Made by a program: the position numbers and the translations under genes
Origin: Paenibacillus sp. sptzw28
GTDB lineage: Bacteria; Bacillota; Bacilli; Paenibacillales; Paenibacillaceae
Reading direction: 5' to 3'
DNA: 64,000 nt
Assembly (NCBI RefSeq): GCF_019550795.1
Contig: NZ_CP080545.1
Location: forward strand, 2,065,501 to 2,129,500
The notes under the pieces: generated by a model
Told to the model about the DNA's origin: nothing
The model's database searches: none
Seen by the model: the letters and a program-made list of their open reading frames with translations, nothing else
Shown here: in pieces, positions 16,613 through 35,483 of the stretch
Position numbering within the stretch: the stretch's first letter is position 1
How the letters are laid out: each line of letters begins with the position of its first letter

Positions 16613-16687
16613 ATGAAAACGAAATTCAAACAGGTCGATCGTTTTGCCCGCAAGGGGCTCAATCTTGAAAGGAGGTCTTTGAAATGA
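16613..16687 (+). CDS. 24-codon leader ORF overlapping the PL38-like gene start
   Basis: The ATG is preceded by AGAGGGAAAG. The frame encodes 24 residues (MKTKFKQVDRF...LERRSLK), rich in Lys and Arg, and ends with a TGA that overlaps the ATG of the next gene as ATGA (16684-16687). The ribosome site of the downstream enzyme (GGAGGT) lies inside this small frame. The arrangement suits translational coupling or a leader peptide that controls expression of the secreted enzyme. It could also be a chance frame; no homologue was recognised. Confidence 0.4.
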   Translation: MKTKFKQVDRFARKGLNLERRSLK

Positions 16688-19600: not shown

Positions 19601-22242
19601 TTGCCGTTTATTTCGGCAGTACGAAGATGAATACCGTTTCCACAGATGCCCGTCATTTTACCGTGACGCAAAAGCTTGGAGAAATCTATAAGCTCGGCAA
19701 AGTCCAGTTCCGCATCGACTACGATCAAGGTGCGAATTTCGGGAAATCGGTCAGAAGTACGATGGACGGCACCTCGGTGACTATCGTTAATGAAGATGGG
19801 CTCATCAACGATGTATTCAAGAATCTTTCTTTGATTGATTCAACACCGGGTCGAAGCATGGATACGACAATTCAGCAAGTGGCCAATCTGTTTGATTGGA
19901 ATGCAGCCACCGTTTCCGATTTTCGCTCCACTAGCGGAGGCTGGGGCTCTTGGGTTGCATTTGACCTCGGCGACCAGGATAAAGTGCAATTAACTCAAGT
20001 AAAATTGCTTGCAAGTCAGGGCGCTCCCGCCCGGGCGGCAGGTATTGTCATCCAGGGAACCAACCACATTGATTATGAGCCGTGGGTGACGTTGACTGCC
20101 CCGGCTGTAAATACGGTGAATTGGCAAACGTTAACGGTCCAGAATCCGAAAGCCTACCGTTATATCCGGATTTTCAACGGGAACCAATGGTTCGGCAATC
20201 TTGCCGAAGTCAAGTTCTATGGTACCGTCATCCATACGGGAAGCCCGGCCATATTGGATACGGTAACGCTGAAGTCGGATAATCCGGAGGATTCTTCCTT
20301 AGCTGTGACGGGGAATACGGTCACCTTGGATTTTGCTGCCGGTAAAGCTCTTGAGAATGTCAGGGTTTATTTCGGCGATAAATTGATGGAGACGGCTTCG
20401 AGCGACAAGCTTCATTGGCAAGCCCGTTATAAGGTTGGAACGACTTATCAAACGGGCAGCATTCCATTTGTGATCCTGTACGATAATGGTCCTGTCGTGA
20501 CCGGTACCACGGACGGTACGTCAGTAACGGTCATTGACCCGCTTCAGATTGCACTCGATAATGCGGCAAAGCTTCCGGCGGGAGATTATTCAAGACTGAG
20601 CTATTATCTGTTCAACCAAGAAGTTGAACGCATCAAAGCGGAAATGACTCCGGGTTATTCTGAGATGAAACTCGCCAAGGAGCTTTACGATGCGAAGAGC
20701 TTGCTTGCCCGGAGCCCGTTCTCCCTCTATTCGTTTGAAGGAAACGCGGGTAATGCATTCGGGTCTTTCAACGGGACGGTTTCCGGCACGCCTGCGTACA
20801 AAGACGGGAAAGTCGGGAAAGCGATCGAATTGAACGGCACCAATAGCTATGTCACGCTGCCCGCTGCGCATCCTCTGTCCAGCTACAATCAGATCACTGT
20901 GTCAACCTGGGTGTACTGGAAGGGCGGAAACCAATGGCAGCGAATCTTTGACTTCGGCAACGGCACTACCCAGTACATGTTCCTGACGCCGAGATCGGGC
21001 AGCAACACGCTGCGTTTCGCGATCAAGAACGGCGGCGGCGAGCAAATCGTGCAAACCTCGCAGCTTGAAGCGAATACGTGGGTTCATGTGGCGGTGACAC
21101 TAGGGAACGGTAAGGAGAAGCTGTATGTGAACGGCGTGGAAAAGGCATCCGCTAACGTCACGATCAATCCGAGCGACTTGAAAGCGACACTAAATTATCT
21201 CGGGAAAAGCCAGTTCTCTTCAGATCCGCTGCTCAGCGGCATGCTGGACGAATTCCGTATTTATGATCATGTATTAAGCGCTGATGAGATCCTTCAGCTA
21301 GCAAACAATACGGCGCCGCAGGGGGACAATTCCTTACTGGTATACTTGTTGGATAAAGCTGCAAAGGTTAATACCGAGCTTTACAAAGAGGAGAGCGTAC
21401 AAGCGCTTCAAGCGGAAGTATCGAATGCACAATCGGTCTATAATAATGCAGCTGCAACACAGGCCGCGATCGATGCGGCATCCGCGAGTCTGCTTGCGGC
21501 TCTCGAAGGGCTGCAGTGGAAGGATGTAACGGCATCCGTAGATCCAGCAGCTCCAAACGGTAAGAACGGCTGGTATACGGCGCCCGTTACTGTGACGCTG
21601 TCTCCCGCGGAAATCGCGGAATACAGCCTGGACGGCGGAGTCACCTGGGCAGTATACGGCGCGCCTGTCACTCTGGACACAGACGGAACGCATCAGGTTC
21701 AGTACCGCCGTTCCGTCGATTCGGGAGAAGTTAAAAATCTGGAGATCAAGATCGACCGTACCGCACCGGTCGTTCAGATAACAGGTGTGGCATCGTACAC
21801 GATTGAACAGGATGTCACCATTACGTGCAGCGCGACCGAAGTTATTTCGAGCGTATATGGTGCGCCGTGCGCGGCGCCGCTGGTACAAGTCAAGGCATAT
21901 ACGCTGCCTGCGGGCCAGAATACGGTATCGGTTACGGCAGAGGATATGGCGGGCAATCAAACGACGGTTACCCATACGTTTACGGTAACGGTTACGTTTG
22001 ACAGCTTGAAGTCAGTAACAACATCATTCCTGCAGGCAACAAATGCCAAAGGATGGGATAACGTCGCCAGTTCCTTGAATAAACTGCTGGATCAGGCGAA
22101 AGCGAAGGCTGCTGCCGGCCAGACCGCTGCGGCGAAGGATATCATGGCCGACTATATTGGCAAAGTAACGGATCAGACCGGCAAATCGTTCACCAAAGAA
22201 CAATCGGAAATTCTGATCCGGTGGGCTGGTATCGTGATCTAG
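16684..22242 (+). CDS. Secreted PL38/alginate-lyase-like enzyme, 1852-residue modular form
   Basis: A signal peptide (1-34, cleavage near VKA/AEA) precedes an alginate-lyase-superfamily toroid at about 79-475. Family signatures are LVHPGVL...LNTMRDMVWQGKEPWASAF, the helix ATTAYQQALMWYITGDEDYL, and VEMGRDQPHS (E331-H338). Then come two carbohydrate-binding-like beta domains (about 500-930), an Ig-like domain (935-1040), F5/8-type-C discoidin (1045-1185), a second Ig-like domain (1190-1290), LamG (1345-1525), FIVAR-like (1540-1605), OmpL47-like (1610-1685), Ig-like (1690-1765) and FIMAH-like (1770-1852). It should cleave a uronic-acid polymer outside the cell; the precise polymer is inference. 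The last about 500 residues closely resemble those of the giant proteins at 2-4600 and 22518-29504. The start has GGAGGT seven bases upstream and overlaps a 24-codon leader frame. Confidence 0.85.
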   Translation: MKGLLPKCKRSLSILLSLLFLGGAIPVSNITVKAAEAPNIAPYAPYVSTVPTPQNSAVINPNYDRSYDNYEVKGPTGLVHPGVLQSRADLNTMRDMVWQGKEPWASAFDLFRRSPESSKNVAIYGNGGTQKEFTYSQISDSNGDKQLRQDATTAYQQALMWYITGDEDYLNNAKKVLDAWGNGLKQFFDTTEPANWDTVAQVWGASSVLSSGVAGQKMAAAAEILLYTPSSGWCRDAQGTIDYEKKKVFDHFLRLIWQESNKWYGFFNQAAVGNMGYMSISIFLDDINGYNEAVERFAYNKKAVDEANKTGANSINFSVAAMVLDNGQIVEMGRDQPHSGGDVAALGAAARTINVQGTKLDPATGVPVAEGGVDPYEFQNQKLLKALSYYTKYNAGYDVDYIPNVNGLGQKTEWSAVSSGGRGSGTDIASIYNHYKYEKGYSGGIYDELYKYPELMMDNPEGQSIDMPGFGQLLFTPANGAMDTEPKGPPQPLQETGNLYGLYNRYPAVPFSFNNAIWFKNGFVKPGIASYLDENGFVQYKAEGTMNGNWFGYENFDFGLVPADTLAFTYGLNSTAGSTITMYVTEPDVKLTDETMAQTTPTAIFQVPHTGWWSVPYTYVQKFDNIGDTLKGKKNLYFKTTGSNNVYNFAAETRWFQFSGGFAKTDNKAIEAPYTSSTGYMKNEAAKNVTLTDGGYIGYRNMNFDSGTMQMQLNHIAAGSGMLEMRLGGPQGQLVKTYPIEDTTGSTVTAAFDHQNDEIIYGNNGGNNDFYLVYRGTGSLTFNSFKYVTPSSSGSVQSTKRQGGSYLSDLYGNAEKVGDNVVLQGDSSAVTYRNVDMGSKGDDRRFMVVRVKSNEPVVMKAIDLGNGNAAANTVAEFAVPNTNGEFVTIAYDLAKSGYAAREGAIFIRLQATGGTADGNVEIDYFSFDNADIPFVELLQAVSIVSDHPGNPSIATLGDTVTLSFTASEPIDNVAVYFGSTKMNTVSTDARHFTVTQKLGEIYKLGKVQFRIDYDQGANFGKSVRSTMDGTSVTIVNEDGLINDVFKNLSLIDSTPGRSMDTTIQQVANLFDWNAATVSDFRSTSGGWGSWVAFDLGDQDKVQLTQVKLLASQGAPARAAGIVIQGTNHIDYEPWVTLTAPAVNTVNWQTLTVQNPKAYRYIRIFNGNQWFGNLAEVKFYGTVIHTGSPAILDTVTLKSDNPEDSSLAVTGNTVTLDFAAGKALENVRVYFGDKLMETASSDKLHWQARYKVGTTYQTGSIPFVILYDNGPVVTGTTDGTSVTVIDPLQIALDNAAKLPAGDYSRLSYYLFNQEVERIKAEMTPGYSEMKLAKELYDAKSLLARSPFSLYSFEGNAGNAFGSFNGTVSGTPAYKDGKVGKAIELNGTNSYVTLPAAHPLSSYNQITVSTWVYWKGGNQWQRIFDFGNGTTQYMFLTPRSGSNTLRFAIKNGGGEQIVQTSQLEANTWVHVAVTLGNGKEKLYVNGVEKASANVTINPSDLKATLNYLGKSQFSSDPLLSGMLDEFRIYDHVLSADEILQLANNTAPQGDNSLLVYLLDKAAKVNTELYKEESVQALQAEVSNAQSVYNNAAATQAAIDAASASLLAALEGLQWKDVTASVDPAAPNGKNGWYTAPVTVTLSPAEIAEYSLDGGVTWAVYGAPVTLDTDGTHQVQYRRSVDSGEVKNLEIKIDRTAPVVQITGVASYTIEQDVTITCSATEVISSVYGAPCAAPLVQVKAYTLPAGQNTVSVTAEDMAGNQTTVTHTFTVTVTFDSLKSVTTSFLQATNAKGWDNVASSLNKLLDQAKAKAAAGQTAAAKDIMADYIGKVTDQTGKSFTKEQSEILIRWAGIVI

Positions 22243-22517: not shown

Positions 22518-25500
22518 ATGTATTTAGGTAACAAGAAAGCAGCCTGGACCATGCGCACCTTGGCCGTCTGTCTGGCGGCAGCCATGCTGTTGCAATTGCT
22601 CGTCCCCGCGGTGAATAATCGTGTATTCGCGGCTAATGAAGATCCGCAGCTTGAATCTGCACAGTCTGAACCTGCTTACGGTATTTTGGATAAGATCGAT
22701 TTCGGCAATGCCGATTCCGAAAGCGCTCACAATTTCAGGGGTGAATTTACAAGCGTGATCACCGGTTTTATGGGGGAGAATGCCAGAGTATCTGAGCCGC
22801 GTATTCCTGCTTCAGATACAGGAGGTTTTTTAACCTTTTCCATGAAAGTGGATCCGTATCTGCAAAATTACTTTACGGTGAAGTTTTCAGGAAATGAGAC
22901 GATGCCTCCGGGAGCTCGAGCGCAAATTGTGATCAATGGCGAACAGATCGGATATTTCAGAGGGGGGGATTATGGTGCTCTGTTTGGTGGCGAACGAGCA
23001 CCGAATCAATTTATATACAGCACCATTGTGCTTCCTCTGGAGTCAACGAGAGGGAAAGAAATAGTAGAAATTACAATTAATACAACGAATCCCCCGGGTA
23101 AGGTAGAACAACCATCAAGGGGGTACTATACCGGTTATTCCCATACCCAGGCTTATATTGATGTGGATGACGAAGTGCAGGGGTATAAGTTTAAAGAAAA
23201 TCAGGGACCGGAGACCGTACTGCAATCTGGTGATACCTATGAGGAAATTGAAGCAAGAATTGAACAGTTAAGACAAGAACCAATTAACACCTTTAATAAT
23301 CTGTATAACCATCTCGGCAATAATCCGAATAACACGTTAAATATCGCGAAATACACAAATCAACTTCGGTATTATGCCATGGTCTTGAAACAGGACATAT
23401 CTCCAATGAAAACCCCGGAAGCGAAACGTGAAGCGTTAATGCGTATGTTTCAGGCCATTGATGTTCATACGAAAAACTATTATGGAAATACAAGACTGGT
23501 GCTTCGCGGAGGACACCAGGGGGATTGGGGCGGCTTTCACGGCGAATTAGGTGAGGCGTTGTATCTTGCGGAAACCCTGATCTTTGATGAAGATGTGTTA
23601 GGAGAAGAAGCCTATAATGACTTTCTGGATCAACCCTTTGATACAGGAACGGTTGAAGGAGAATTTTCCCTCGCCAGCGCAGGGTGGAATGGTGAATCAT
23701 TAACCCGTCGAATGGCATGGGAACGGGTACTGAAAGCGAATTTTGATTTTGCCCGTTCCAGACAATCTTATATTACGAATCAGGTGTTCTATACGTACGA
23801 AGGCGCATGGAAAGCTCATGAAGGGCTCAGGATGGTAGGGTCCAAATTTTATGAAGGGAAAGCGCGCAGTCATCAAATTGTATTAGAAATGTTTGGAGTA
23901 AGACCATGGTTAGGAGAAGAAGTATTGGTTGGTCCTAACGGGGAAGAATTAGATCTCTATCATTCTTTGTTTGCGCATGATAATTCAGCTGTCTTTACAG
24001 ATGACTATGTACACATTGTCGGAAAAGGGCTTGCAAAAAGCAAATTGGATGAAGAGGGTCATGTTGTACGGCGTAATCCTTATGGAGAACATTATACAAA
24101 TCTAACCAAAGCCGGGTTGACAAGAGAAAATCACTATGTGGGAATTTATGGGGAAGTAGCCAATTATATTTTGGATTACTTCTATAAAACCTTGGATCAG
24201 CCTGGGGATGAACAACTCAATGATGAACTTCTGAAACAAGCTCTTCACAACTTTTATGCTCGTGTGTGGACTCGAATCCAAGACCTGGATGATGAGGGCA
24301 AACGACTCATAGCGATGAATGCCACTGTAGATGCACGAAATGGGGGTATGCCTTCCAGAACTCCTGCTTATGGCGCCAGAATGCTCGGATATGGCACGTC
24401 CTATGCTTATTTGGAAAAACATATGGCGGATCATGAAGAACGATATAGCGGTCCGGAATGGGAGCGGTATTGGGACTATGCCAAATATACCGTAGGGGCC
24501 GTACAGCAGATGAAGATGGATAATCGCTTAATGGGTGATTTGTCTTCGAGGGATTTCCATCTGCCTGAGACCTATGAGTATATATTCAAAACCCGGAAGG
24601 ACTATGCAAGATTTAATGATGTAAAGGCCGGGGTTGTCATTCCTCAGACCGATTTTGATTATTATACAGAAGAAGAGATTGCTGCATTAGGTGTGAATCC
24701 GGAGGATTATGAACAGTTTGCATGGATCGATGTAGATAATGCATTCATCTCCATGCGAGATGGGAACTTTAGAATGTTCGGGGCTTTAGCATGGCTGAAT
24801 TTGGGAGTTTCGGCCACTGGCAGGCTTCATATTGTTACCCCTAAGTATGTGGGAACGGTACAAGTTGCTCACAATAATCAATTTCAATATACAGATTACT
24901 ACATCAGACCTCATGATGTGGATCTATTTTACCAGCGATCAGATCCGGCAACCAAAGGGTTTGCGCCTCAGTCCCTGGCTGGTGAAATATTACCCACTGC
25001 TTATCAGCCGGGGGTTGGTACAGTGGTGCGAGACAATCTTGAAGTCGATCACCCCTATTCATCTTTGTCGGATTTAAGGGTTGCAAGATATGGGGAGTAT
25101 TTCATCCTCATGAATACCACTCGTGCTGAATACGAGAATGAAAGATCCTTTGAGGTGGAGCTGCCTTCCGATTATACAGGAAATGAGATCTTCGATCTTG
25201 TTTCAAAAGCCAATATTCCGGTAATCAATGGAAAAGTAACCATTGGACCTGAAAAAGGAATGGTTCTTAAATTATCGTCCAAATTTGATCCAACGCCAAA
25301 GCCAAGTCATGTGGATTTTGCCAAAGCGGTTGAAGGCAATGGATTTGTAGATGTGATTTGGAAAACCACTGCCGGAGGAAAGACGTACACCATCAAACGT
25401 TCGGAAGTAGAACATGGTCCGTATGCCGTGATTGCAGAAGGGTTAACGGGCAGTCACTATAAAGATACCGATGTAGTCAATGGGAAAGTTTACTACTATA

Positions 25501-28500
25501 AAGTGGCAGCCGTTAATGAACACGGATCAGGCTGGGAGTCATGGCGCGCAAAAGCAGATCTGAGCGATGCCGGATCCAAAAATCTGGCTTCCCCATGGCA
25601 GCAGGATCTCATAGGTACCACCAAAGGCAGCGCAACGATTAACGGTGATGTGATTACAATTCAGAATGTAGATGGAAAAGGCCTGGGTGAAGGGGATGAT
25701 TTTAATATCTATAAAAGAGATATTAATGACTCCTTCCACTTTGTCCATCAGACAGCCGTTGGAAATAGCTCTATCAGTGCCAGAATTGATCAGAATAGCG
25801 GCGCTCTCAGCGGTATTATGTTAAGGGAAAAGCTTTCTGAAAATTCCCGTTATCTTTATTTCGGCGCGGATGACCAAGGGAACCTGGTATTGCAAGATCG
25901 TAATCGAGTATCCTTTGTGGTATGGAATGGCGGTAAAGCTGTAAGTCCGTTAAATCATGGAATTAAAGGGTATCATATCAATGACTATCCTTATATCAAG
26001 CTATTGTGGCATCATAATTCACAGATCGCCTACGCATTTGTATCGAAAGATGGAGTCGATTGGGAATACGTCGCCAAGACAGAAAGTTTATTCCCATATG
26101 CATATTATACAGGACTCATATCGACTCAAGAGGCAGCATTCAGTGAAGTAACCGTATCGGAAATGCCGAGAGAGAGTCTGATTCCGTTTGTTGAAAAAGA
26201 AAAAGATCAAATCACTTTGCATTGGACTAAACCGAAGCAAGCCTCCTGGTTCAACGTATACCGCACCTATGATGAAGAGGCGAGCTTGATCGATCCGGTA
26301 TTCAAGGCAGGCACGACTGAACTGGAAGACGGCTCCCCCTGGGAGGAGGTTCTCACAGGTACAAGAGCGAAGCCATTCCAGGACGTCTTACGGTATGGCA
26401 GTGTGTATTATAAGGTGCTGGCCGTTCATGACGACGGTTCCCCGCAACCGTTCTCGGCCACTGTTTCCGCTGATGCGGATCCGATTTCGGTGGTGCTGGA
26501 GGATGCGAAGAGCTTGCCGGCCTACGACTATACGAAGGCGAGCTTCTATCTGTACCATAAGGAATTGGATCGTATTAAAGCGGAGATGATGAGGCCTGAA
26601 TTTGAAGAGGCGCAGCTGATTGACGAAATCTACGATGCGAAGAAGCTGCTCGTTTCGGTTCGGACGCTGCTGACGAAAATTCAGATGGATCCATCGATGG
26701 CCAGGGCCTCTGAGAAGTTTTGGCAGAATGATAACATCTCCGAGGAACAGAACGCATGGTATTTATTTGATGAAAATCCCGACACGATTGCCCACACCAG
26801 GTCTAAAGAGAGCTGGGTTGACGTGGACTTTGGCGCAGGAAACGAAAAAGTGGTGGATACGTTCCGCTACCTGCCGAGGAGGAATGCTACCCACCGAGTC
26901 AACGACACCGTCTTCAAGGGTTCGAAAGACGGCGTGAACTGGACTGATCTGCATCGCATTAAAGGGGTAGGCGTATATGAATGGTATTCCGTCATCAATC
27001 CAGACAGGACGCCATACCGTTATATTCGCATTTACGACGACCATTTCGGCTTCGTAAACTTTGAAGAAATCGAGTTCCTTAAAATCGGCATTGACAAGAC
27101 GCTGCTCGCGCACTTGCTGGATGAAGCGGCGGCAGCGCAAGAAGCCGGCATCTATACGGAAGAAAGTTTGCAGTCGGTCGTGCAGCACGCTGCTGCGGCA
27201 GCTGCGGTACACGATAACCCGGATGCGACTCAGGAAGAGATTGATATCGCGGATAGCAATCTGCTGGCTGCATTCAAAGGACTGAAATATATTCCGGGCA
27301 TGCCGGTTCTTCAATCCCTTGCAGACAAGACTGTCATTGCAGAAAACACGCTAACATTCAAGGTTCAAGCAGTCAATGCGGTTACGGATGTCGTATATGG
27401 GGTGAACGGTCTGCCCGAAGGAGCATCCTTTGATGCGGCCGCTCAAACGTTCGTCTGGACGCCGGGCAAAGAACAGAGCGGCGTGCATACCGTAACCTTT
27501 ACTGCGACGGCCGGTGAAATGTCTTCTTCCAAAACGATTAAAATCACAGTCAAAGGACAGCCGGTTATTGGTCCCGATACTACGGTGGAGCTGACGGCAA
27601 AGAAGGACTTCAGCTATCAGGTTCCGGCATCCGATCCGACTGGCGAGCAGCTGGTTTACAGCGCCGCGAATTTGCCCGCAGGGGCAGCGTTCAACGCGGC
27701 GACCGGCGTATTCAGCTGGAAGCCGGGCCAGGCCGATTACGGCAGCCATTCAGTAACCTTCACCGTGAGCAACGCCAATTATTCGGTCAGCCAGACGGTG
27801 GCGTTCAAGGTGAAGCTGGGTATCCTCTCGGCTGAAGGCTATACGAAGGGCAGCTACTACCTTTATCTGAAGGAAGTTGCACGTATCGAAGCGGAGATGG
27901 CGAAACCGGGTGCCGACAAGGCGCAGCTTGCCGCTCAGCTTGACCAAGCGGGGAAGTCGCTTGTTCCCGTCCCTCTTTCGCTCTACGCGTTTGAAGGAAA
28001 TGCGAACAATTCGTACGGCTCGTCCGCATCCGGCGGGGCCGTATTCGGACCTCCGGTTTACACGGAAGGAAAGGTCGGCCAGGCCATCAATCTGAACGGC
28101 ACGGATAACTACGTCAAACTGCCTTCGACGCATGCTCTAGCCGGGTACAATGAGATCACCCTGGCAACCTGGGTCTACTGGAAGGGCGGCAACCAGTGGC
28201 AGCGAATCTTCGACTTCGGCAACAATACGAATCAGTTTATGTTCCTTACGCCGAGATCGGGCAACAATACGCTGCGTTTCGCGATCAAGAACGGCGGCGG
28301 CGAACAAATCGTACAAACGTCGCAGCTTGCCGTTAATCAATGGGTTCACGTCGCGGTGACGCTAGGAAGTGGTTCGGCGAAGCTGTATGTGAACGGCGAG
28401 CTGAAGGCGACGAATACCAATACGACCATCAAGCCGAGCGATTTTAAGCCGGGCGTCAATTACATTGGCAAAAGCCAGTTTAACGATCCGTTGTTCAATG

Positions 28501-29504
28501 GGATGATCGACGAATTCCGCGTCTACAACTACGTCCTGAACGCGGACGAGATCAAGGCCACCATGAATAATACGGCGAACTGGATTGACAAAACGTTAAT
28601 TCCGATCCTGCTGGAAGAAGCAGCGAAGGTCAATGCCGAGCTCTACACAGAGGAGAGCGTACAAGCGCTTCAAGCGGAAGTATCGAATGCACAATCGGTC
28701 TACAATAATGCAGCTGCAAACCAGGCCGAGATCGATGCCGCATCCGCAGGGCTGCTTGCCGCACTTAAAGGACTGCAGTGGAAGGATGTAACGGCGTCCG
28801 CAGATCCTGCAGCTCCAAACGGCAAGAACGGCTGGTATACGTCATCGGTCACGGTGACACTGTCTCCGGCGGCAATCGCGGAATACAGCCTGGACAAGGG
28901 CGTCACCTGGGCTGTCTATAGTGCGAATGTAACCCTGGATCAAGAGGGAACGCATCCGTTTATGTACCGCCGTTCCGTCGAACCGGGAGAAGCTCAAACG
29001 CTGGAGATCAAGATCGACCGCAGCGCACCCGTAGTTCAGATAACGGGCGAGTCATCGTACACGGTCGACCAGACGGTGATCATTACATGCAGCGCGACCG
29101 ATGTCGTCTCGAGTGTATACGGTACGCCATGTACCGCACCGCTGGTTCAAGCGAAGGCGTACACGCTGCCTGCGGGCCAGAACACGATATCGGTTACGGC
29201 AGAGGATATGGCAGGCCATCAAACAACGGTCACCCACACCTTTACGGTGACGGTCACGTTTGACAGCTTGAAGACCGTGACGAACACCTTTATGCAAACG
29301 ACCGGCTATAAGGGTTGGGAAACTGTTGCTAAGTCGTACCATCAAAAACTCGATCAGGCCAAAGCTGCAGCCTCCAGAGGTAAAATAGACGCGGCCAGGA
29401 GCATGATGGCCGACTATATCAAACAGGTAACGGACCAAACCGGGAAATATTTCACGCAAGAGCAAGCGGATATTCTGATCCGCTGGGCACAGATCGTGAT
29501 CTAG
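22518..29504 (+). CDS. Giant modular secreted protein with an unassigned alpha-helical catalytic-type region (2328 residues)
   Basis: The start ATG follows AAGGAGG at nine bases. A signal peptide spans 1-38 (VFA/AN). The N-terminus (45-235) is beta-rich, 245-640 is mostly helical with many Trp/Tyr/His and looks like an alpha/alpha toroid, and 690-945 is beta-rich. That catalytic-sized assembly resembles the architecture of toroid polysaccharide lyases, but I cannot assign a CAZy family. Then follow Fn3 (948-1035), DUF1349/LamG-like (1040-1235), Fn3-like (1236-1320), discoidin (1385-1520), FIVAR-like (1525-1590), two He_PIG Ig domains (1600-1770), LamG (1828-2014), FIVAR-like, OmpL47-like, Ig-like and FIMAH-like (2245-2328). 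DNA before about 26228 is A+T-richer with different codon use; after that it is near-identical in patches to 1333-4600. The role, extracellular polymer degradation, is inferred from modules and neighbours. Confidence 0.85.
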   Translation: MYLGNKKAAWTMRTLAVCLAAAMLLQLLVPAVNNRVFAANEDPQLESAQSEPAYGILDKIDFGNADSESAHNFRGEFTSVITGFMGENARVSEPRIPASDTGGFLTFSMKVDPYLQNYFTVKFSGNETMPPGARAQIVINGEQIGYFRGGDYGALFGGERAPNQFIYSTIVLPLESTRGKEIVEITINTTNPPGKVEQPSRGYYTGYSHTQAYIDVDDEVQGYKFKENQGPETVLQSGDTYEEIEARIEQLRQEPINTFNNLYNHLGNNPNNTLNIAKYTNQLRYYAMVLKQDISPMKTPEAKREALMRMFQAIDVHTKNYYGNTRLVLRGGHQGDWGGFHGELGEALYLAETLIFDEDVLGEEAYNDFLDQPFDTGTVEGEFSLASAGWNGESLTRRMAWERVLKANFDFARSRQSYITNQVFYTYEGAWKAHEGLRMVGSKFYEGKARSHQIVLEMFGVRPWLGEEVLVGPNGEELDLYHSLFAHDNSAVFTDDYVHIVGKGLAKSKLDEEGHVVRRNPYGEHYTNLTKAGLTRENHYVGIYGEVANYILDYFYKTLDQPGDEQLNDELLKQALHNFYARVWTRIQDLDDEGKRLIAMNATVDARNGGMPSRTPAYGARMLGYGTSYAYLEKHMADHEERYSGPEWERYWDYAKYTVGAVQQMKMDNRLMGDLSSRDFHLPETYEYIFKTRKDYARFNDVKAGVVIPQTDFDYYTEEEIAALGVNPEDYEQFAWIDVDNAFISMRDGNFRMFGALAWLNLGVSATGRLHIVTPKYVGTVQVAHNNQFQYTDYYIRPHDVDLFYQRSDPATKGFAPQSLAGEILPTAYQPGVGTVVRDNLEVDHPYSSLSDLRVARYGEYFILMNTTRAEYENERSFEVELPSDYTGNEIFDLVSKANIPVINGKVTIGPEKGMVLKLSSKFDPTPKPSHVDFAKAVEGNGFVDVIWKTTAGGKTYTIKRSEVEHGPYAVIAEGLTGSHYKDTDVVNGKVYYYKVAAVNEHGSGWESWRAKADLSDAGSKNLASPWQQDLIGTTKGSATINGDVITIQNVDGKGLGEGDDFNIYKRDINDSFHFVHQTAVGNSSISARIDQNSGALSGIMLREKLSENSRYLYFGADDQGNLVLQDRNRVSFVVWNGGKAVSPLNHGIKGYHINDYPYIKLLWHHNSQIAYAFVSKDGVDWEYVAKTESLFPYAYYTGLISTQEAAFSEVTVSEMPRESLIPFVEKEKDQITLHWTKPKQASWFNVYRTYDEEASLIDPVFKAGTTELEDGSPWEEVLTGTRAKPFQDVLRYGSVYYKVLAVHDDGSPQPFSATVSADADPISVVLEDAKSLPAYDYTKASFYLYHKELDRIKAEMMRPEFEEAQLIDEIYDAKKLLVSVRTLLTKIQMDPSMARASEKFWQNDNISEEQNAWYLFDENPDTIAHTRSKESWVDVDFGAGNEKVVDTFRYLPRRNATHRVNDTVFKGSKDGVNWTDLHRIKGVGVYEWYSVINPDRTPYRYIRIYDDHFGFVNFEEIEFLKIGIDKTLLAHLLDEAAAAQEAGIYTEESLQSVVQHAAAAAAVHDNPDATQEEIDIADSNLLAAFKGLKYIPGMPVLQSLADKTVIAENTLTFKVQAVNAVTDVVYGVNGLPEGASFDAAAQTFVWTPGKEQSGVHTVTFTATAGEMSSSKTIKITVKGQPVIGPDTTVELTAKKDFSYQVPASDPTGEQLVYSAANLPAGAAFNAATGVFSWKPGQADYGSHSVTFTVSNANYSVSQTVAFKVKLGILSAEGYTKGSYYLYLKEVARIEAEMAKPGADKAQLAAQLDQAGKSLVPVPLSLYAFEGNANNSYGSSASGGAVFGPPVYTEGKVGQAINLNGTDNYVKLPSTHALAGYNEITLATWVYWKGGNQWQRIFDFGNNTNQFMFLTPRSGNNTLRFAIKNGGGEQIVQTSQLAVNQWVHVAVTLGSGSAKLYVNGELKATNTNTTIKPSDFKPGVNYIGKSQFNDPLFNGMIDEFRVYNYVLNADEIKATMNNTANWIDKTLIPILLEEAAKVNAELYTEESVQALQAEVSNAQSVYNNAAANQAEIDAASAGLLAALKGLQWKDVTASADPAAPNGKNGWYTSSVTVTLSPAAIAEYSLDKGVTWAVYSANVTLDQEGTHPFMYRRSVEPGEAQTLEIKIDRSAPVVQITGESSYTVDQTVIITCSATDVVSSVYGTPCTAPLVQAKAYTLPAGQNTISVTAEDMAGHQTTVTHTFTVTVTFDSLKTVTNTFMQTTGYKGWETVAKSYHQKLDQAKAAASRGKIDAARSMMADYIKQVTDQTGKYFTQEQADILIRWAQIVI

Positions 29505-30097: not shown

Positions 30098-30964
30098 CTA
30101 TATCCGATGCAGCGTTTTGTAAGCCTTCGGTGTCATGCCTGTAATAAGCTTGAATTTATGATAAAAGTACGACTCGCTCTCCATCCCGCATTTTTCACAT
30201 ATGGTTTTGATGCTGTCATCCGTACGTACCAGCAGTTCTTTCGCCAGCATGACTCGCTTGACCACGACATATTCCGTAACGTTCATACCGGTCAGTTGTT
30301 TGAACACCCTGGAGAAGTGTGACGGTGTGATCGCAGCCCTTTTGGACAGTGCGGAAAGTGTCATGTTAGGATCGCCGATATTGGTATCCATGTATGATAA
30401 GGTTTCCCGCATCCATAAAGGCTCAAGCATTGAATCCCCCTTGGCTGAGGTGCCTGGCAAAGAAATACGGTTTAACGTCAGCAGCAGGTCGCAGACCCGG
30501 ATTTGAACAGCGGTTTGATAATATGCCATCATTTTACCGAGCTCTTCATGGATGGAAGCAACGAAGGATGTAATAGAAGCACGTTCCGATTGCGGTGTTT
30601 CTAATTTGTACTGCTTGTTTCGCCTTGCATTCTCGAGACAGCGGAGAATGGAGCCCTGTTCCCCCAACTCCAGCGGCTGGATCAAGGCTGGGCTGAAGAA
30701 GAGGGCGCTCGATGTTACAGGGTTGTATTCGTCGGGAAAAGCGCGGTGTACGGTATTGCCGGGAATGAGAAACAGGTCGCCTTCGTTCATCTCGTAAAAA
30801 GTGTGGTTGACCAGCAGAGTACCTTTTCCGGAATATACATAGATGATTTCATGCCAGTCGTGCAGATGGTGGGGAAGTTCCATCTGGGGAGTCTTGGTAT
30901 CCTTGTAAACAAGGACCACAGGGATTTTATTTCCCTCGCTTAATCTTTTGTGAATTGCTTTCAT
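30098..30964 (-). CDS. AraC-family regulator of the sugar-oxidation operon
   Basis: The 288-residue cytosolic protein has an N-terminal cupin-type AraC ligand-binding domain (about 20-150; LPHHLHDWHEIIYVYSGKG) and a C-terminal double helix-turn-helix (about 185-285; LSALSKRAAITPSHFSRVFK and IKTICEKCGMESESYFYHKF). The start ATG has GAGGAGGGG upstream; a longer in-frame start lacks it. It diverges from the aldo/keto reductase-Zn dehydrogenase-GH95 operon across a 144-base intergenic region with palindromic AT-rich sequence that is duplicated at 37046. It is therefore the likely activator of both. The ligand is unknown, plausibly an L-sugar released by GH95. Confidence 0.88.
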   Translation of the reverse strand: MKAIHKRLSEGNKIPVVLVYKDTKTPQMELPHHLHDWHEIIYVYSGKGTLLVNHTFYEMNEGDLFLIPGNTVHRAFPDEYNPVTSSALFFSPALIQPLELGEQGSILRCLENARRNKQYKLETPQSERASITSFVASIHEELGKMMAYYQTAVQIRVCDLLLTLNRISLPGTSAKGDSMLEPLWMRETLSYMDTNIGDPNMTLSALSKRAAITPSHFSRVFKQLTGMNVTEYVVVKRVMLAKELLVRTDDSIKTICEKCGMESESYFYHKFKLITGMTPKAYKTLHRI

Positions 30965-30990
30965 TTCGAATCCCCTCCTCGACACTATAA

Positions 30991-31077
30991 TTGATGATAG
31001 CAAATAAGAGCATAAATACACAATAATCTTATATTTTATTGTTTTATTATGCTGTTATTATTGGGGTAAAGAACGAT
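30991..31077. promoter_or_regulatory. Divergent control region, duplicated at 37046-37122
   Basis: The conserved core runs from AAATACACAATAATC (31014) to ATTATTGGGGTAAAGA (about 31073). The imperfect inverted repeat ATAATCTTA / TTTTATTAT (31023-31050) matches a perfect version at 37071-37098. On the minus strand TTGTGT (31018-31023) and TATCAT (30994-30999), 18 bases apart, form a plausible promoter for the AraC gene. Operator function is inference. Confidence 0.55.
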
Positions 31078-31108
31078 CACATTTTAATCGTTGAGAGGGA
31101 AGGTATAT

Positions 31109-32053
31109 ATGAAATACAGGAAGCTCGGGAATACCGGAATGGACGTTTCCATCCTAAGCTTTGGCGCATCGTCGCTTGGATCCGTGTTTCGCGACATTGA
31201 TGATGCAGAAGGCATCCGCACGGTTCATGAGGCGCTTGACGCCGGGATCAATTATATCGACGTAGCTCCTTACTACGGGTTAACGAAAGCGGAGTCCGTG
31301 CTTGGGAAGGCAATCCGGGAAGTTCCGCGCAGCCGCTATTATCTGTCTTCCAAAGCAGGCAGGTATGGACCTGATACCTTCGATTTTTCCGGTCGGCGGA
31401 TCGTCGCAAGTGTGGAAGAAAGCCTTGCAAGACTTCATACCGATTATCTCGATATTCTATTTCTCCACGATATCGAGTTTGTTGAGCCTGGAATCTTGTA
31501 TGAGGAGGCTTTCCCCGCACTTGATAGGCTTAAGCGGGAAGGCAAAATCCGCAATACGGGAATCTGCGGCCTGCCGATCCGTCTCTTCGAGACATTCCTC
31601 CCTCATGTTCAGGCGGATGCGATAATCTCCTATTGTCACTACTCCCTGAGCGACACAACGCTGCTGAGGCTTCTGCCGCTCATCGAGGAGAAAGGGGTCG
31701 GTCTTGTGAATGCATCCCCGCTCTCGATGGGACTGCTAGGCACGCGCGGTACACCGGACTGGCATCCGGCAGGCGATGAAATCAAGCGGATTTGCCGACA
31801 GGCTGCGGAGTATTGCGCGGAGCAAGGCGAAGATATTTCCAGACTCGCTATACAATTCTCAACCATGAACGAACGAATTCCAACTACGCTCGTCAGCACG
31901 GCCAATCCGGCCAATATTCGCAAGAATGCGGCATGGGTCACGGAGCCGATTGACCATGAATTGCTCCACGAAGTGCTGGGGATATTGGAGCCTATCAAAG
32001 ATAAAACCTGGTCCAGCGGTATCCAGGCATACAATACTGATATTAATCTTTAG
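31109..32053 (+). CDS. Aldo/keto reductase, L-galactose-dehydrogenase-like
   Basis: This 314-residue cytosolic NAD(P)-dependent oxidoreductase carries the aldo/keto reductase tetrad D51, Y55 or Y56, K82 and H120 (YIDVAPYYG, SSKAG, FLHDIEF). Sequence motifs agree closely with plant and bacterial L-galactose dehydrogenases: YRKLGNTGMDVS at the start, ISYCHYSLSDTTLL, NASPLSMGLLG and DWHPAGDEIK. Such enzymes oxidise L-galactose at C1 to the 1,4-lactone. L-fucose is a related possible substrate. ATG 31109 follows AGAGGGAAGG; the TTG at 31091 is part of the spacer. The next gene is 24 bases downstream in the same operon. The second enzyme's identity supports an L-galactose route. Confidence 0.85.
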   Translation: MKYRKLGNTGMDVSILSFGASSLGSVFRDIDDAEGIRTVHEALDAGINYIDVAPYYGLTKAESVLGKAIREVPRSRYYLSSKAGRYGPDTFDFSGRRIVASVEESLARLHTDYLDILFLHDIEFVEPGILYEEAFPALDRLKREGKIRNTGICGLPIRLFETFLPHVQADAIISYCHYSLSDTTLLRLLPLIEEKGVGLVNASPLSMGLLGTRGTPDWHPAGDEIKRICRQAAEYCAEQGEDISRLAIQFSTMNERIPTTLVSTANPANIRKNAAWVTEPIDHELLHEVLGILEPIKDKTWSSGIQAYNTDINL

Positions 32054-32077
32054 TACCAAAAGGAGAGAATAAAAACT

Positions 32078-33091
32078 GTGAAAGCTATCGTCTGCGAACA
32101 AGTCGGGCAGTTTAAACGGATCGAACTTCCAGAACCGTCCCCCGTTACCGGGGAAGGGATCGTGCGGATCAAACGTATCGGCATTTGTGGAACCGACATT
32201 CATGCTTTTAAAGGGAATCAACCCTTCTTCACGTATCCGCGAATTCTTGGACATGAGCTGTCCGGCATCATCGAGTGGATCGGGGACAATGATGCGGGTT
32301 TGCATGCCGGTGATCAAGTCAGTATTATTCCTTATCTGCATTGTGGGATCTGCATCGCTTGCAGGAACGGAAAGACGAACTGCTGCACATCCATGCGGGT
32401 ACTTGGTGTCCATACCGACGGCGGTATGAAGGAGCTGCTCTCCGTGCCGGTTACACATCTGCTGAAGGCCAATTCGCTAACGCTCGATCAGGCTGCAATC
32501 GTCGAACCGCTGAGTATCGGGGCCCATGCCGTGCGCAGGTCGGCATTGCAGTCAGGAGAGACTGCATTAGTCATTGGCGGAGGTCCGATCGGTCTTGGCG
32601 TCATGGCGATCGCAAAACTTCAAGGCGCCAAGGTAATCGCAATGGATATCGACAAGGAGAGGCTTTCTTTCTGCAAAGCTTGGGCACATGTTGACGGAAC
32701 GGTACATGCGACGGAAAACCCTGCCTCAACAATCGAAGAACTGACAAACGGGGAATATCCGACCGTTGTGTTCGATGCGACCGGCAATGCCCGCTCCATG
32801 TCGGAAGCCGTTCGTTACATGGCACACGGCGGCCGATTGGTTTATGTCGGCCTTGTTAAAGGGGAAATTCCCCTGGACGATCCGGAGTTCCACAAACGGG
32901 AGGCCACGCTGCTCGGCAGCAGAAATGCAACACGTGAGGACTTCCTGTACGTGATCGATCTGATCCAGGAAGGCCGACTTCAGACAGATGCTTATATGAC
33001 GCATAACGCGCCATTCGAACAGATGATGGACAGGTTTCAAGATTGGCTGAATCCGGCATCCAAGGTTATCAAAGCGATCGTTACACTGTAA
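32078..33091 (+). CDS. lgoD: Zn-dependent dehydrogenase, L-galactonate-5-dehydrogenase (LgoD)-like
   Basis: This 337-residue medium-chain dehydrogenase has a GroES-like half with catalytic Zn ligands (C37 in ICGTDIHAF, H59-E60 in LGHE) and structural-zinc cysteines (CGICIACRNGKTNCC). A Rossmann half carries GGGPIGLG. Resemblance to E. coli LgoD (YjjN) is specific: KGNQPFF.YPR.LGHE, RVLGVHTDGG, VEPLSIGAHAVRR, DPEFHKREATLLGSRNAT. LgoD oxidises L-galactonate to D-tagaturonate, which enters hexuronate catabolism. GTG start with AAAGGAG upstream. It lies between an L-galactose-dehydrogenase-like gene and a GH95 gene, forming a logical release-oxidise-oxidise series. The symbol is by resemblance; biochemical specificity is inferred. 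Confidence 0.8.
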   Translation: MKAIVCEQVGQFKRIELPEPSPVTGEGIVRIKRIGICGTDIHAFKGNQPFFTYPRILGHELSGIIEWIGDNDAGLHAGDQVSIIPYLHCGICIACRNGKTNCCTSMRVLGVHTDGGMKELLSVPVTHLLKANSLTLDQAAIVEPLSIGAHAVRRSALQSGETALVIGGGPIGLGVMAIAKLQGAKVIAMDIDKERLSFCKAWAHVDGTVHATENPASTIEELTNGEYPTVVFDATGNARSMSEAVRYMAHGGRLVYVGLVKGEIPLDDPEFHKREATLLGSRNATREDFLYVIDLIQEGRLQTDAYMTHNAPFEQMMDRFQDWLNPASKVIKAIVTL

Positions 33092-33110
33092 ATGAATCAG
33101 GGGGATTTCC

Positions 33111-35483
33111 ATGAAGCTGCAATACAGTTTGCCCGCCGTATACTGGACGGAAGCGCTGCCGGTAGGTAACGGCAGATTGGGAGCGATGGTCTTCGGGGGC
33201 GTGGAATGCGAACGCATTCAACTGAATGAAGATACGCTGTGGTCCGGTTATCCGAAAGACGGTACGAATCCGCGGGCTATTCAGGTTTTGCCTGAAGTGC
33301 GAAAACAAATTGAGGAAGGCAACTATGCAGAGGCTGACCGGCTCTGCAAAGAAATGATGGGGCCGTATACGCAGTCCTACCTGCCGTTTGGAGATCTGAG
33401 GCTCGTGATGGAGCACGGCGACGTGTACAGGGACTATAGAAGGCAGCTGGATTTGGAACGGGGGCTGTCGCTGGTTGAATACTCCATCGGCGATGTTCGT
33501 TATTCGCGCGAGGTGTTTGCTTCATTTCCCGATCAAGTCATTGCGATACGTCTTCGGTCCAGCAAACAGGGAAGTCTCAGTTTTCACGCCCGGCTGGACA
33601 GCCCGCTGCGCTTTCGGTCTGAGGTTTCCGAGGGGGATTTTGTCATCGAAGGAATCGCTCCGGAGCATGTATGGCCCAATTATTACCCAAGCGACAATCC
33701 GATACAATACGGAGATGCCGAGGAACAGAAGTCGCTTAAGTTTCATGGCCGGCTGTATGTTGCGTGTGAAGGTGGCAAGCTGAGCGTCGACCATGACGGG
33801 TATCACGTTACCGGGGCCACGAACGCAACCTTGCTTTTCAGCGCTGCCACCAATTACGACGGGAAAAGCGGCGCGCCGGACAAGGAGCGGAATCCTGGGG
33901 CCTTCGCCAAATCCGTCCTCGATAAAGTCAAAGACGGAGACTACGGGCGGCTTCGGGACAAGCATGCTGCCGACCATGGACTGCTTTTCAATCGGGTCAC
34001 CTTGAAACTGGGGGAAAGTATCGCACCGCCGGACATGCCGACGGATAAGCGGATTGCGCAGTTTGGCGCGAGCGATCCCGGACTTGTGGAGCTGCTGTTT
34101 CATTACGGGCGCTATCTGATGATCGCCAGTTCCCGGCCGGGGACGCAGCCTGCGAACCTGCAGGGAATCTGGAATGACCAGACGCGCGCACCGTGGAGCA
34201 GCAATTACACGCTGAACATCAATGCGGAAATGAACTACTGGCCTGCCGAGACGTGCAATTTGGCAGAGTGTCACGGGCCGTTGTTTGATTATATCGAACG
34301 GCTCGCATTAAGTGGCAGCCAAACCGCGGCGGTCAATTATGGGGCCGAGGGATGGGTGGCGCACCATAATTCGGACATATGGGCCCATTCTGCTCCGGTA
34401 GGCGATTACGGCGACGGTGATCCGGTGTGGGCGTACTGGCCGATGGGGGGCGTATGGCTGGCACAGCATTTGTGGGAGCACTTCGCGTTCGCTCAGAACC
34501 GTGTATTCCTTCGAGATAAGGCCTACCCTTTAATGAAGGGAGCCGCCATGTTCTGTCTCGATTGGCTGTACGAAGACGATCAGGGTTATTTGCAAACCGC
34601 GCCTTCGACCTCGCCCGAACATAAATTCGTCATAGACGGCAAGCATTATGCGGTAAGCCGTTCGGCAACGATGGACATTTCGCTCATCTGGGATTTATTT
34701 ACGAATTGCATCGAAGCGTCTGAAATTCTCGGTACGGATGAAGCTTTCCGGTCGAAATTAGCCGATGCGCGCGCGAAGCTTCAGCCGCTCCAAATCGGCA
34801 AACACGGACAGCTGCAGGAATGGTATAAGGACTTTGAGGATGAAGACGTTCATCATCGGCATGTGTCCCATCTGTTTGGCGTTTACCCCGGCAGACAGCT
34901 AACGGAAACAGAGACGCCTCGTCTGTTCGTTGCCGCAAGAAAGTCGCTTGAAATAAGAGGAGATGGCGGCACAGGCTGGAGCCTCGGATGGAAAGTAGGA
35001 CTGTGGGCTAGATTCAAGGATGGCAACCGTGCGCACCGTCTGTTATCCAACCTGCTGACGCTCGTGAAGGAAGACGAGCCGGGCAATCATGCTGGCGGAG
35101 GAGTTTACGCCAATCTCTTCGATGCGCATCCACCGTTCCAGATTGACGGCAATTTCGCGGCGACTGCCGGGATCGCAGAGCTGCTGGTGCAATCGCACCA
35201 GGGAGAAATCCAGCTGCTGCCGGCATTGCCGGATGCCTGGAACAGCGGCTATATCAAGGGACTGAGAGGGCGAGGAGGATTCGGGATCGACCTGGCCTGG
35301 GAGAACGGGGAACTCACCCATGCCGAGATCCGCTCTTCCATAACCCGGACATGCAGAATTCAGGTTGGGCGACCGGTCCGCATCCTGGAGAACAATCAGC
35401 CTGTTCTGACGAATCTGACTGCAAGCGGACGATATGAGTTCGAGGCAGTCGAAGGAAAAAGTTACACCATCATACCGGAGTAA
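33111..35483 (+). CDS. GH95 glycosidase (alpha-L-fucosidase or alpha-L-galactosidase)
   Basis: The 790-residue protein has the GH95 layout: N-terminal beta domain (WTEALPVGNGRLGAMVFG), linker, (alpha/alpha)6 toroid and C-terminal beta domain. Residues matching the family's catalytic set are present: N369 and N371 in NINAEMNYW, E503 in STSPEH, and D679 in QIDGNFAAT. There is no signal peptide, so it acts in the cytosol on imported oligosaccharides. GH95 inverting enzymes release L-fucose or, in some members, L-galactose. The two upstream dehydrogenases favour L-galactose. ATG follows AGGGGGATT; the gap to the Zn dehydrogenase is 19 bases. Specificity is not readable from the sequence. Confidence 0.88.
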   Translation: MKLQYSLPAVYWTEALPVGNGRLGAMVFGGVECERIQLNEDTLWSGYPKDGTNPRAIQVLPEVRKQIEEGNYAEADRLCKEMMGPYTQSYLPFGDLRLVMEHGDVYRDYRRQLDLERGLSLVEYSIGDVRYSREVFASFPDQVIAIRLRSSKQGSLSFHARLDSPLRFRSEVSEGDFVIEGIAPEHVWPNYYPSDNPIQYGDAEEQKSLKFHGRLYVACEGGKLSVDHDGYHVTGATNATLLFSAATNYDGKSGAPDKERNPGAFAKSVLDKVKDGDYGRLRDKHAADHGLLFNRVTLKLGESIAPPDMPTDKRIAQFGASDPGLVELLFHYGRYLMIASSRPGTQPANLQGIWNDQTRAPWSSNYTLNINAEMNYWPAETCNLAECHGPLFDYIERLALSGSQTAAVNYGAEGWVAHHNSDIWAHSAPVGDYGDGDPVWAYWPMGGVWLAQHLWEHFAFAQNRVFLRDKAYPLMKGAAMFCLDWLYEDDQGYLQTAPSTSPEHKFVIDGKHYAVSRSATMDISLIWDLFTNCIEASEILGTDEAFRSKLADARAKLQPLQIGKHGQLQEWYKDFEDEDVHHRHVSHLFGVYPGRQLTETETPRLFVAARKSLEIRGDGGTGWSLGWKVGLWARFKDGNRAHRLLSNLLTLVKEDEPGNHAGGGVYANLFDAHPPFQIDGNFAATAGIAELLVQSHQGEIQLLPALPDAWNSGYIKGLRGRGGFGIDLAWENGELTHAEIRSSITRTCRIQVGRPVRILENNQPVLTNLTASGRYEFEAVEGKSYTIIPE

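Follow-up and report, generated by a model that had tools for sequence, protein, structure and literature searches.

A putative L-galactose release and oxidation module in Paenibacillus sp. sptzw28 and related Paenibacillaceae

The genome of Paenibacillus sp. sptzw28 holds, in a stretch of 64,000 nucleotides here called the window (G000:C1:2065501-2129500, contig NZ_CP080545.1, of a one-contig genome of 6.10 Mb), a gene set that probably belongs to an AraC-controlled module of the Paenibacillaceae for the release and oxidation of L-galactose. An AraC-family regulator gene diverges from three tightly spaced genes that encode an aldo/keto reductase (AKR), a zinc-dependent medium-chain dehydrogenase/reductase (MDR) resembling LgoD of E. 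coli, and a glycosidase of family GH95 (Table 1). The gene content, homology, synteny and motif discussed below were observed directly. An earlier note on this DNA had listed the same gene set, which is confirmed, the open reading frames lying where the note put them; its interpretation as a whole is partly supported.

Pfam matches above cut-off are AraC_binding and HTH_18 for the regulator, Aldo_ket_red for the AKR, ADH_N and ADH_zinc_N for the MDR, and three GH95 domains for the glycosidase. Only 24 bp separate AKR from MDR and 19 bp MDR from GH95, and plausible ribosome sites are visible by eye ahead of the latter two genes. The regulator frame as listed spans 30098-31021 (minus strand); a start at the ATG at 30961 was judged more likely, since it leaves the operator-like site in the gap. 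The next gene after GH95, starting about 610 bp downstream, encodes a GH43. A promoter and terminator scan gave counts no higher than in shuffled sequence and was discarded.

Table 1. Features of the putative L-galactose operon (window coordinates)
Feature	Position	Strand	Evidence
AraC-family regulator, divergent	30098..30961	-	AraC_binding/cupin and HTH_18 (Pfam); ortholog cluster in 48 of 80 related loci
Operator-like site; the window's instance of a motif kept upstream of related operons	30992..31027	+	Matrix score and pattern match
AKR, L-galactose dehydrogenase type; predicted L-galactose to L-galactonolactone	31109 (ATG)..32053	+	Pfam, PDB comparison, tetrad
Zinc MDR dehydrogenase, LgoD-like L-galactonate 5-dehydrogenase; predicted L-galactonate to D-tagaturonate	32078 (GTG)..33091	+	Pfam, NCBIfam, tree
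GH95 glycosidase, catalytic residues intact; proposed intracellular alpha-L-galactosidase	33111..35483	+	Pfam, PDB, alignment, tree

Proposed pathway

In the proposed pathway, whose substrates and flux are predictions, imported oligosaccharides would lose a terminal alpha-L-galactosyl residue to a cytoplasmic GH95; the family is an inverting one, so the product would be the beta anomer. The AKR would oxidize L-galactose at C1 to a lactone, a lactonase would open this to L-galactonate, and the LgoD-like MDR would oxidize L-galactonate at C5 to D-tagaturonate. Reduction to D-altronate by UxaB and dehydration by UxaA would yield 2-keto-3-deoxygluconate, which KDPG aldolase would cleave after its phosphorylation. 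The module would be divided in this genome, with release and both oxidations in the window and the mutarotase, lactonase, UxaB, UxaA and another MDR at a second locus; each part has its own AraC regulator and a similar operator-like motif upstream, weak at the second. Together, MDR and UxaB would amount to a C5 epimerization of L-galactonate, a step that L-fuconate would not need. The L-galactose reading is largely supported by sequence comparison, and L-fucose may be a minor or dual substrate. The earlier note had the three window genes convert L-galactose to D-tagaturonate; both oxidations are retained, but the route is not complete in them, since the lactone must be opened, by a lactonase or spontaneously, and a lactonase sits at the second locus.

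The two dehydrogenases

Among solved structures, the five best of 72 sequences matched by the AKR are all named L-galactose dehydrogenase (285-339 bits), and the sixth scores 116 bits. The AKR residues Asp51, Tyr56, Lys82 and His120 align with the solved L-galactose dehydrogenases and correspond to the catalytic tetrad described for the spinach enzyme (PMC10069634). These scores and the tetrad bear out the earlier assignment to the L-galactose dehydrogenase type, for which NAD(P)-dependent oxidation of L-galactose would be the predicted activity. The note had left the sugar as L-galactose or L-fucose. For the AKR, L-fucose is now the weaker candidate, as the reported Km of plant L-galactose dehydrogenases is 56 mM with L-fucose against 0.1-0.4 mM with L-galactose (PMC11066809), and LguA of Luteolibacter is described as inactive on L-fucose (PMC12632266); GH95, or the whole route, may still act on L-fucose.

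Homologues of the AKR abound: of 8000 candidates scored, 7918 pass E 0.001. Many of the 120 listed come from Paenibacillus and Cohnella, and their source names include L-galactose dehydrogenase (several) and L-fuco-beta-pyranose dehydrogenase (one). At E <= 1e-75, in a draw across the phylum with at most five candidates scored per genome, the AKR occurs in 6 of 398 genomes, its own included, all of the same family.

The MDR shares 44.2% identity with LgoD, versus 26.4-32.1% with seven other E. coli MDRs (RspB, YdjJ, YdjL, GatD, Tdh, IdnD and Ahr), and it groups with LgoD at 98/91 support in a 27-row tree in which long branches were flagged. With that warning, the earlier description of the MDR as LgoD-like holds. 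A paralogue at the second locus is 64% identical to the window MDR. Linkage of an LgoD-type MDR to uxaB and uxaA is found for this paralogue and in 14 of 80 related loci; in the window itself the MDR is unlinked to them.

The GH95 glycosidase

The catalytic residues of GH95, said earlier to be intact, were found as Asn369, Asn371, Glu503 and Asp680, together with Thr367 at the O6-contact position, where Thr occurs in 25 of 25 GH95 rows. No signal peptide is apparent by eye. The genome holds four GH95 genes in its 6.1 Mb. In a 27-row tree, which leaves out the own-genome gene at 2.135 Mb, the window copy lies among the GH95s of related loci, apart from two own-genome paralogues (45.5% and 48.8% identity), and the GH95s that follow MDR form two well-separated groups, that is, two subfamilies.

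The second locus and the remaining steps

About 250 kb from the window operon, at approximately 2.345-2.351 Mb (G000:C1; locus L103), a second AraC gene diverges from a gene for a FucU-type mutarotase, followed in one gene run by genes for an Amidohydro_2-family lactonase, for UxaB and a UxaA-type enzyme, and for the second MDR. UxaB scores 595 bits on the NCBIfam tagaturonate reductase model (cut-off 359). A genome search for uxaA and uxaB homologues, suggested in the earlier note, has accordingly found both, here. Upstream of this AraC gene lie TIM-barrel, Gfo/Idh, IclR, short-chain dehydrogenase/reductase (SDR) and FAH genes; the TIM-barrel gene is xylose-isomerase-like (Pfam AP_endonuc_2, L103:202-1083). 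Two KDPG-aldolase-family genes are found elsewhere in the genome. The reading that UxaB and UxaA serve D-galacturonate alone was set aside; UxaC is also located elsewhere and UxaB is the genome's only Mannitol_dh_C match, so the two routes may share these enzymes.

A further UxaA-type gene, at G000:C1:2403734, was not assigned to the L-galactose pathway. At L104:4255-10174 a short UxaA-family gene lies with genes for an SDR, for a LacI regulator and for a GH36 melibiase; the group may serve another sugar-acid route.

Gene order in related loci

Conservation was assessed in the best 80 of 406 AKR relatives, a set that is biased to close kin, with some near-identical strains and some loci ending at contig edges; named relatives are Paenibacillus and Cohnella. 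Presence was scored by tblastn at set thresholds (for SDR and FAH, 45% identity over 60-70% of length). The MDR is present in 75 of the 80 loci, the lactonase in 49, AraC in 49 with the second-locus query or 48 with the window query, GH95 in 24, UxaB in 19, UxaA in 17 and FucU in 2. AKR has MDR as its neighbor in 75. In two of the five exceptions the contig ends within 200 bp, in a third the lactonase adjoins AKR, and two are without a match (one of these ends 1.1 kb after AKR). GH95 follows MDR directly in 11 loci and MDR-lactonase in 5 further ones. By our estimate from four GH95 genes per 6.1 Mb genome, about 1 of 80 loci would be expected to have a GH95 within 10 kb, versus the 24 observed. 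The gene order is far from chance.

Lactonase, UxaB, UxaA, AKR and MDR occur together in 14 loci, and all components in a single one, L073 of Paenibacillus sp. HW567, with the order AraC / lactonase-UxaB-UxaA-AKR-MDR-GH95-MFS transporter. At another 23 loci AKR stands alone or with MDR, the remainder of the set, GH95 included, being absent. Of these, 21 (L048, L055, L059, L060, L062 and 16 more, many of the P. amylolyticus/xylanexedens/pabuli kind) share a housekeeping-like context around AKR-MDR: a YitT-family gene lies downstream in 21 of 21 and a radical-SAM gene of the CofH/MqnC type upstream in 20 (families assigned from one representative each). GH31 or GH43 genes lie near some of the GH95 loci, as judged by Pfam on 20 chosen of 188 flanking reading frames of at least 280 amino acids in the 24 loci. 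The xylan of corn fibre is described as carrying L-galactose as a rare terminal sugar (PMC7176698, PMC4491172), and such neighbors, for which no background rate was computed, would suit the L-galactose-xylose-arabinose side chain of that polymer.

An operator-like motif

Regulation is predicted from a motif with a consensus of about ATATCAAAATnGRGTATAAAnnTGCAA that is kept upstream of related operons. A 36-position matrix was built from 41 of 47 AraC/operon gaps of relatives, the window being excluded; six gaps were left out, one for being too short for the matrix and five for scores of at most 8, in several cases because the gap limits had been badly set. Within the window the matrix peaks in the AraC-AKR gap at 31.4 bits, and the runner-up on both strands of the 64 kb reaches 12.8. 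In the 23 loci that carry only AKR or AKR-MDR the score never exceeds 10.4, and in five further stretches of the own genome no site exceeds 11.5 bits except a decayed duplicate (24.2). A genome search for the pattern with up to three mismatches returned 18 places, versus 8 for the reversed control, and the window site is the only place with zero mismatches, the pattern having been written to fit it. At the second locus the two top matrix scores (17.1 and 16.9) belong to overlapping sites at the AraC-FucU gap, and the next is 2.2. A regulon shared by the window operon and the second locus, through the predicted operator, is suggested.

A second near-perfect copy of the operator lies about 48 kb upstream of the operon, at G000:C1:2048548 (L136 near 1501; L153 near 8544), and comes next after the window site in the pattern search. 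Its flanks contain, by eye, a decayed C-terminal AraC fragment and a fragment resembling the window protein 22518-29504, which points to the remains of a duplicated island edge. Lying in this decayed duplicate, the site was rejected as an additional member of the regulon.

Extended to the family, the proposal would be a dedicated L-galactose regulon of the Paenibacillaceae. A dedicated AraC regulator, acting through one conserved operator, would govern operons of varying make-up that draw on L-galactose dehydrogenase, lactonase, LgoD, UxaB, UxaA and a GH95 alpha-L-galactosidase working inside the cell, and GH95 would have been recruited at least twice from different subfamilies. This wider proposal is favored on balance, with some reserve.

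Alternative explanations

Several observations weigh against the L-galactose reading. The window MDR falls below every NCBIfam cut-off (best model PRK10083, 211 of 376), as does E. coli LgoD itself (206 on PRK10083); its best PDB match by phmmer is RspB (4ilk), and no chain named L-galactonate dehydrogenase is found among the best 60 of its 202 PDB matches. At the second locus FucU passes the NCBIfam L-fucose mutarotase model (153 bits, cut-off 141), the best model for the lactonase is L-fucono-1,5-lactonase, below cut-off (228 of 400), and the UxaA-type enzyme matches galactarate dehydratase alone, far under cut-off (291 of 731). The best PDB match of the lactonase is 4dlf, which we take to be an L-fucono-1,5-lactonase. 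The motif there is weak, overlaps the AraC frame at its 5' end as listed, and is not among the pattern matches. A close AKR (E <= 1e-100) occurs in only 11 of 22 genomes of the genus, and the 21 of 80 loci in which AKR-MDR has the housekeeping-like context are without AraC, lactonase or motif. GH95 scores higher with the alpha-L-fucosidase 8zbv (705 bits) than with the L-galactosidase BACOVA_03438 (4ufc; 644), and the nearest solved GH95, BH0842, is listed with no specificity; such scores were set aside as a guide because they do not separate galactosidase from fucosidase. Nor is Thr367 discriminating, as the residue is reported both for BACOVA_03438 (PMC4491172) and for fucosidases (PMC8245568); a Thr/His rule was discarded as a test on this ground, and GH95 specificity is not readable from sequence.

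A dual or mainly L-fucose pathway, which appears rather unlikely, would make GH95 an alpha-1,2-L-fucosidase (acting, for example, on xyloglucan fragments) and have the AKR take both L-fucose and L-galactose; FucU and the lactonase would act on L-fucose and L-fuconolactone, the UxaA-type enzyme would dehydrate L-fuconate, and SDR and FAH would finish the route. The model matches of FucU and lactonase fit this, and most characterized GH95 enzymes are fucosidases, two having L-galactosidase activity, according to a review (PMC10154630). A fucose locus with dehydratase, hydrolase and mutarotase is described in C. jejuni (PMC6946681). SDR and FAH belong to families also used in oxidative L-fucose breakdown (here neither meets a specific NCBIfam model), and because they adjoin the second locus and FucI was not found in the genome, L-fucose could share the route. 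Yet neither SDR nor FAH has a match in any of the 80 AKR loci, the enzymes nearest the AKR disfavor L-fucose by the properties given above, and MDR and UxaB would be superfluous for L-fuconate.

It is distinctly unlikely that AKR and MDR act on L-galactose while GH95 is a fucosidase or broad enzyme acquired for another sugar, release and oxidation then not being one pathway. The Thr common to both activities (PMC8245568), the listing of BH0842 and the 56 of 80 AKR loci in which no GH95 was found, some cut by contig ends, would permit such a separation; but GH95 from two subfamilies comes right after MDR or MDR-lactonase in 16 of the 80, which suggests selection for the pairing. Most improbable is a dual pathway for L-glucose and L-galactose as in Luteolibacter sp. 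LG18, whose LguG is presumably a member of the xylose-isomerase-like TIM-barrel superfamily. The AKR is of the same kind as LguA, which also takes L-glucose, and the AP_endonuc_2 TIM-barrel gene upstream of the second locus might recall LguG, annotated as D-tagatose 3-epimerase, but LguA is reported to prefer L-galactose about 40-fold (PMC12632266). The presence of GH95 points instead to a natural glycan sugar. The TIM-barrel gene has a Gfo/Idh gene as its neighbor, and such pairs are frequent in other pathways.

Comparison with known systems

The earlier statement that no dedicated bacterial operon of this kind is commonly described does not hold for L-galactose catabolism as such, which is known from Phocaeicola vulgatus and from the lgu cluster of Luteolibacter; for the link to GH95, no counterpart was found in the literature listed. 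In P. (Bacteroides) vulgatus an L-galactose dehydrogenase and an L-galactonate dehydrogenase (BVU_0219/0222; Hobbs 2014, as cited in PMC12632266) are described, the two activities predicted here, and the former is reported to cluster with LguA and the Arabidopsis enzyme (PMC12632266). That species belongs to another phylum. The Hobbs abstract reportedly includes a lactonase, Bvu0220.

The lguR/lguABCDEF cluster of Luteolibacter sp. LG18 resembles the present system in its divergent activator gene, its AKR-type L-galactose/L-glucose dehydrogenase, its L-galactonate dehydrogenase, tagaturonate reductase and altronate dehydratase, and its chemistry as far as 2-keto-3-deoxygluconate (PMC12632266). 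It differs in having a KDPG aldolase in the cluster, in showing neither GH95 nor lactonase among the genes of the figure legend, and in belonging to another phylum (PMC12632266). No single cluster of that type is present here: of its enzymes the window has AKR and MDR only, UxaB and UxaA are about 250 kb away and the aldolase genes are elsewhere.

The L-galactonate route is also described from E. coli and Halomonas (PMC5507952). Of the eight E. coli MDRs compared, LgoD of the lgoT-lgoR-lgoD locus comes closest to the window MDR, for which the LgoD reaction is proposed, but the 12 annotated features of 14 kb around that locus include no L-galactose dehydrogenase and no glycosidase. The Halomonas loci for L-fucose, L-fuconate and L-galactonate share lgoD, uxaA, uxaB (or uxaF), COG1028 (SDR) and COG0179 (FAH) with the second locus, and no GH95 is mentioned in the portion consulted (PMC5507952). 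The B. ovatus alpha-L-galactosidase BACOVA_03438 (PMC4491172) has its GH95 domains, its Asn/Asn/Glu of catalysis and, at the O6 position, its Thr in common with the window enzyme, which differs in scoring higher with BH0842 and 8zbv, in having no visible signal peptide and in standing beside sugar-oxidation genes. The LL1355 enzymes are further known GH95 alpha-L-galactosidases (PMC7176698). No description of L-galactose oxidation coupled to GH95 was found among the literature matches listed, which cover few subscription journals. What seems new is the gene arrangement with GH95 and its likely control site; the chemistry is known.

Other features of the window

Three giant multidomain proteins are encoded at 2-4600, 16684-22242 and 22518-29504. 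All have LamG, two also Ig-like, F5/8, FIVAR and FIMAH-like pieces, and their N-terminal halves have no or weak Pfam matches (alginate-lyase-like in one). A GH5 with CBM_X2 and CBM46 domains lies at 52603-54309, a make-up known from xyloglucan-active enzymes.

Significance

Few bacteria have been shown to use L-galactose. The Luteolibacter authors report no organism with high-identity orthologues of their cluster minus lguG, that is, of the L-galactose part only (PMC12632266), with which the 14 of 80 loci carrying lactonase, UxaB, UxaA, AKR and MDR contrast. The coupling of release to oxidation, together with a candidate operator, would offer an L-galactose regulon amenable to testing, in a family of bacteria that can be cultured. 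It yields candidate alpha-L-galactosidases for work on corn fibre, and it suggests a likely function for an AKR that is widespread in Paenibacillus and Cohnella.

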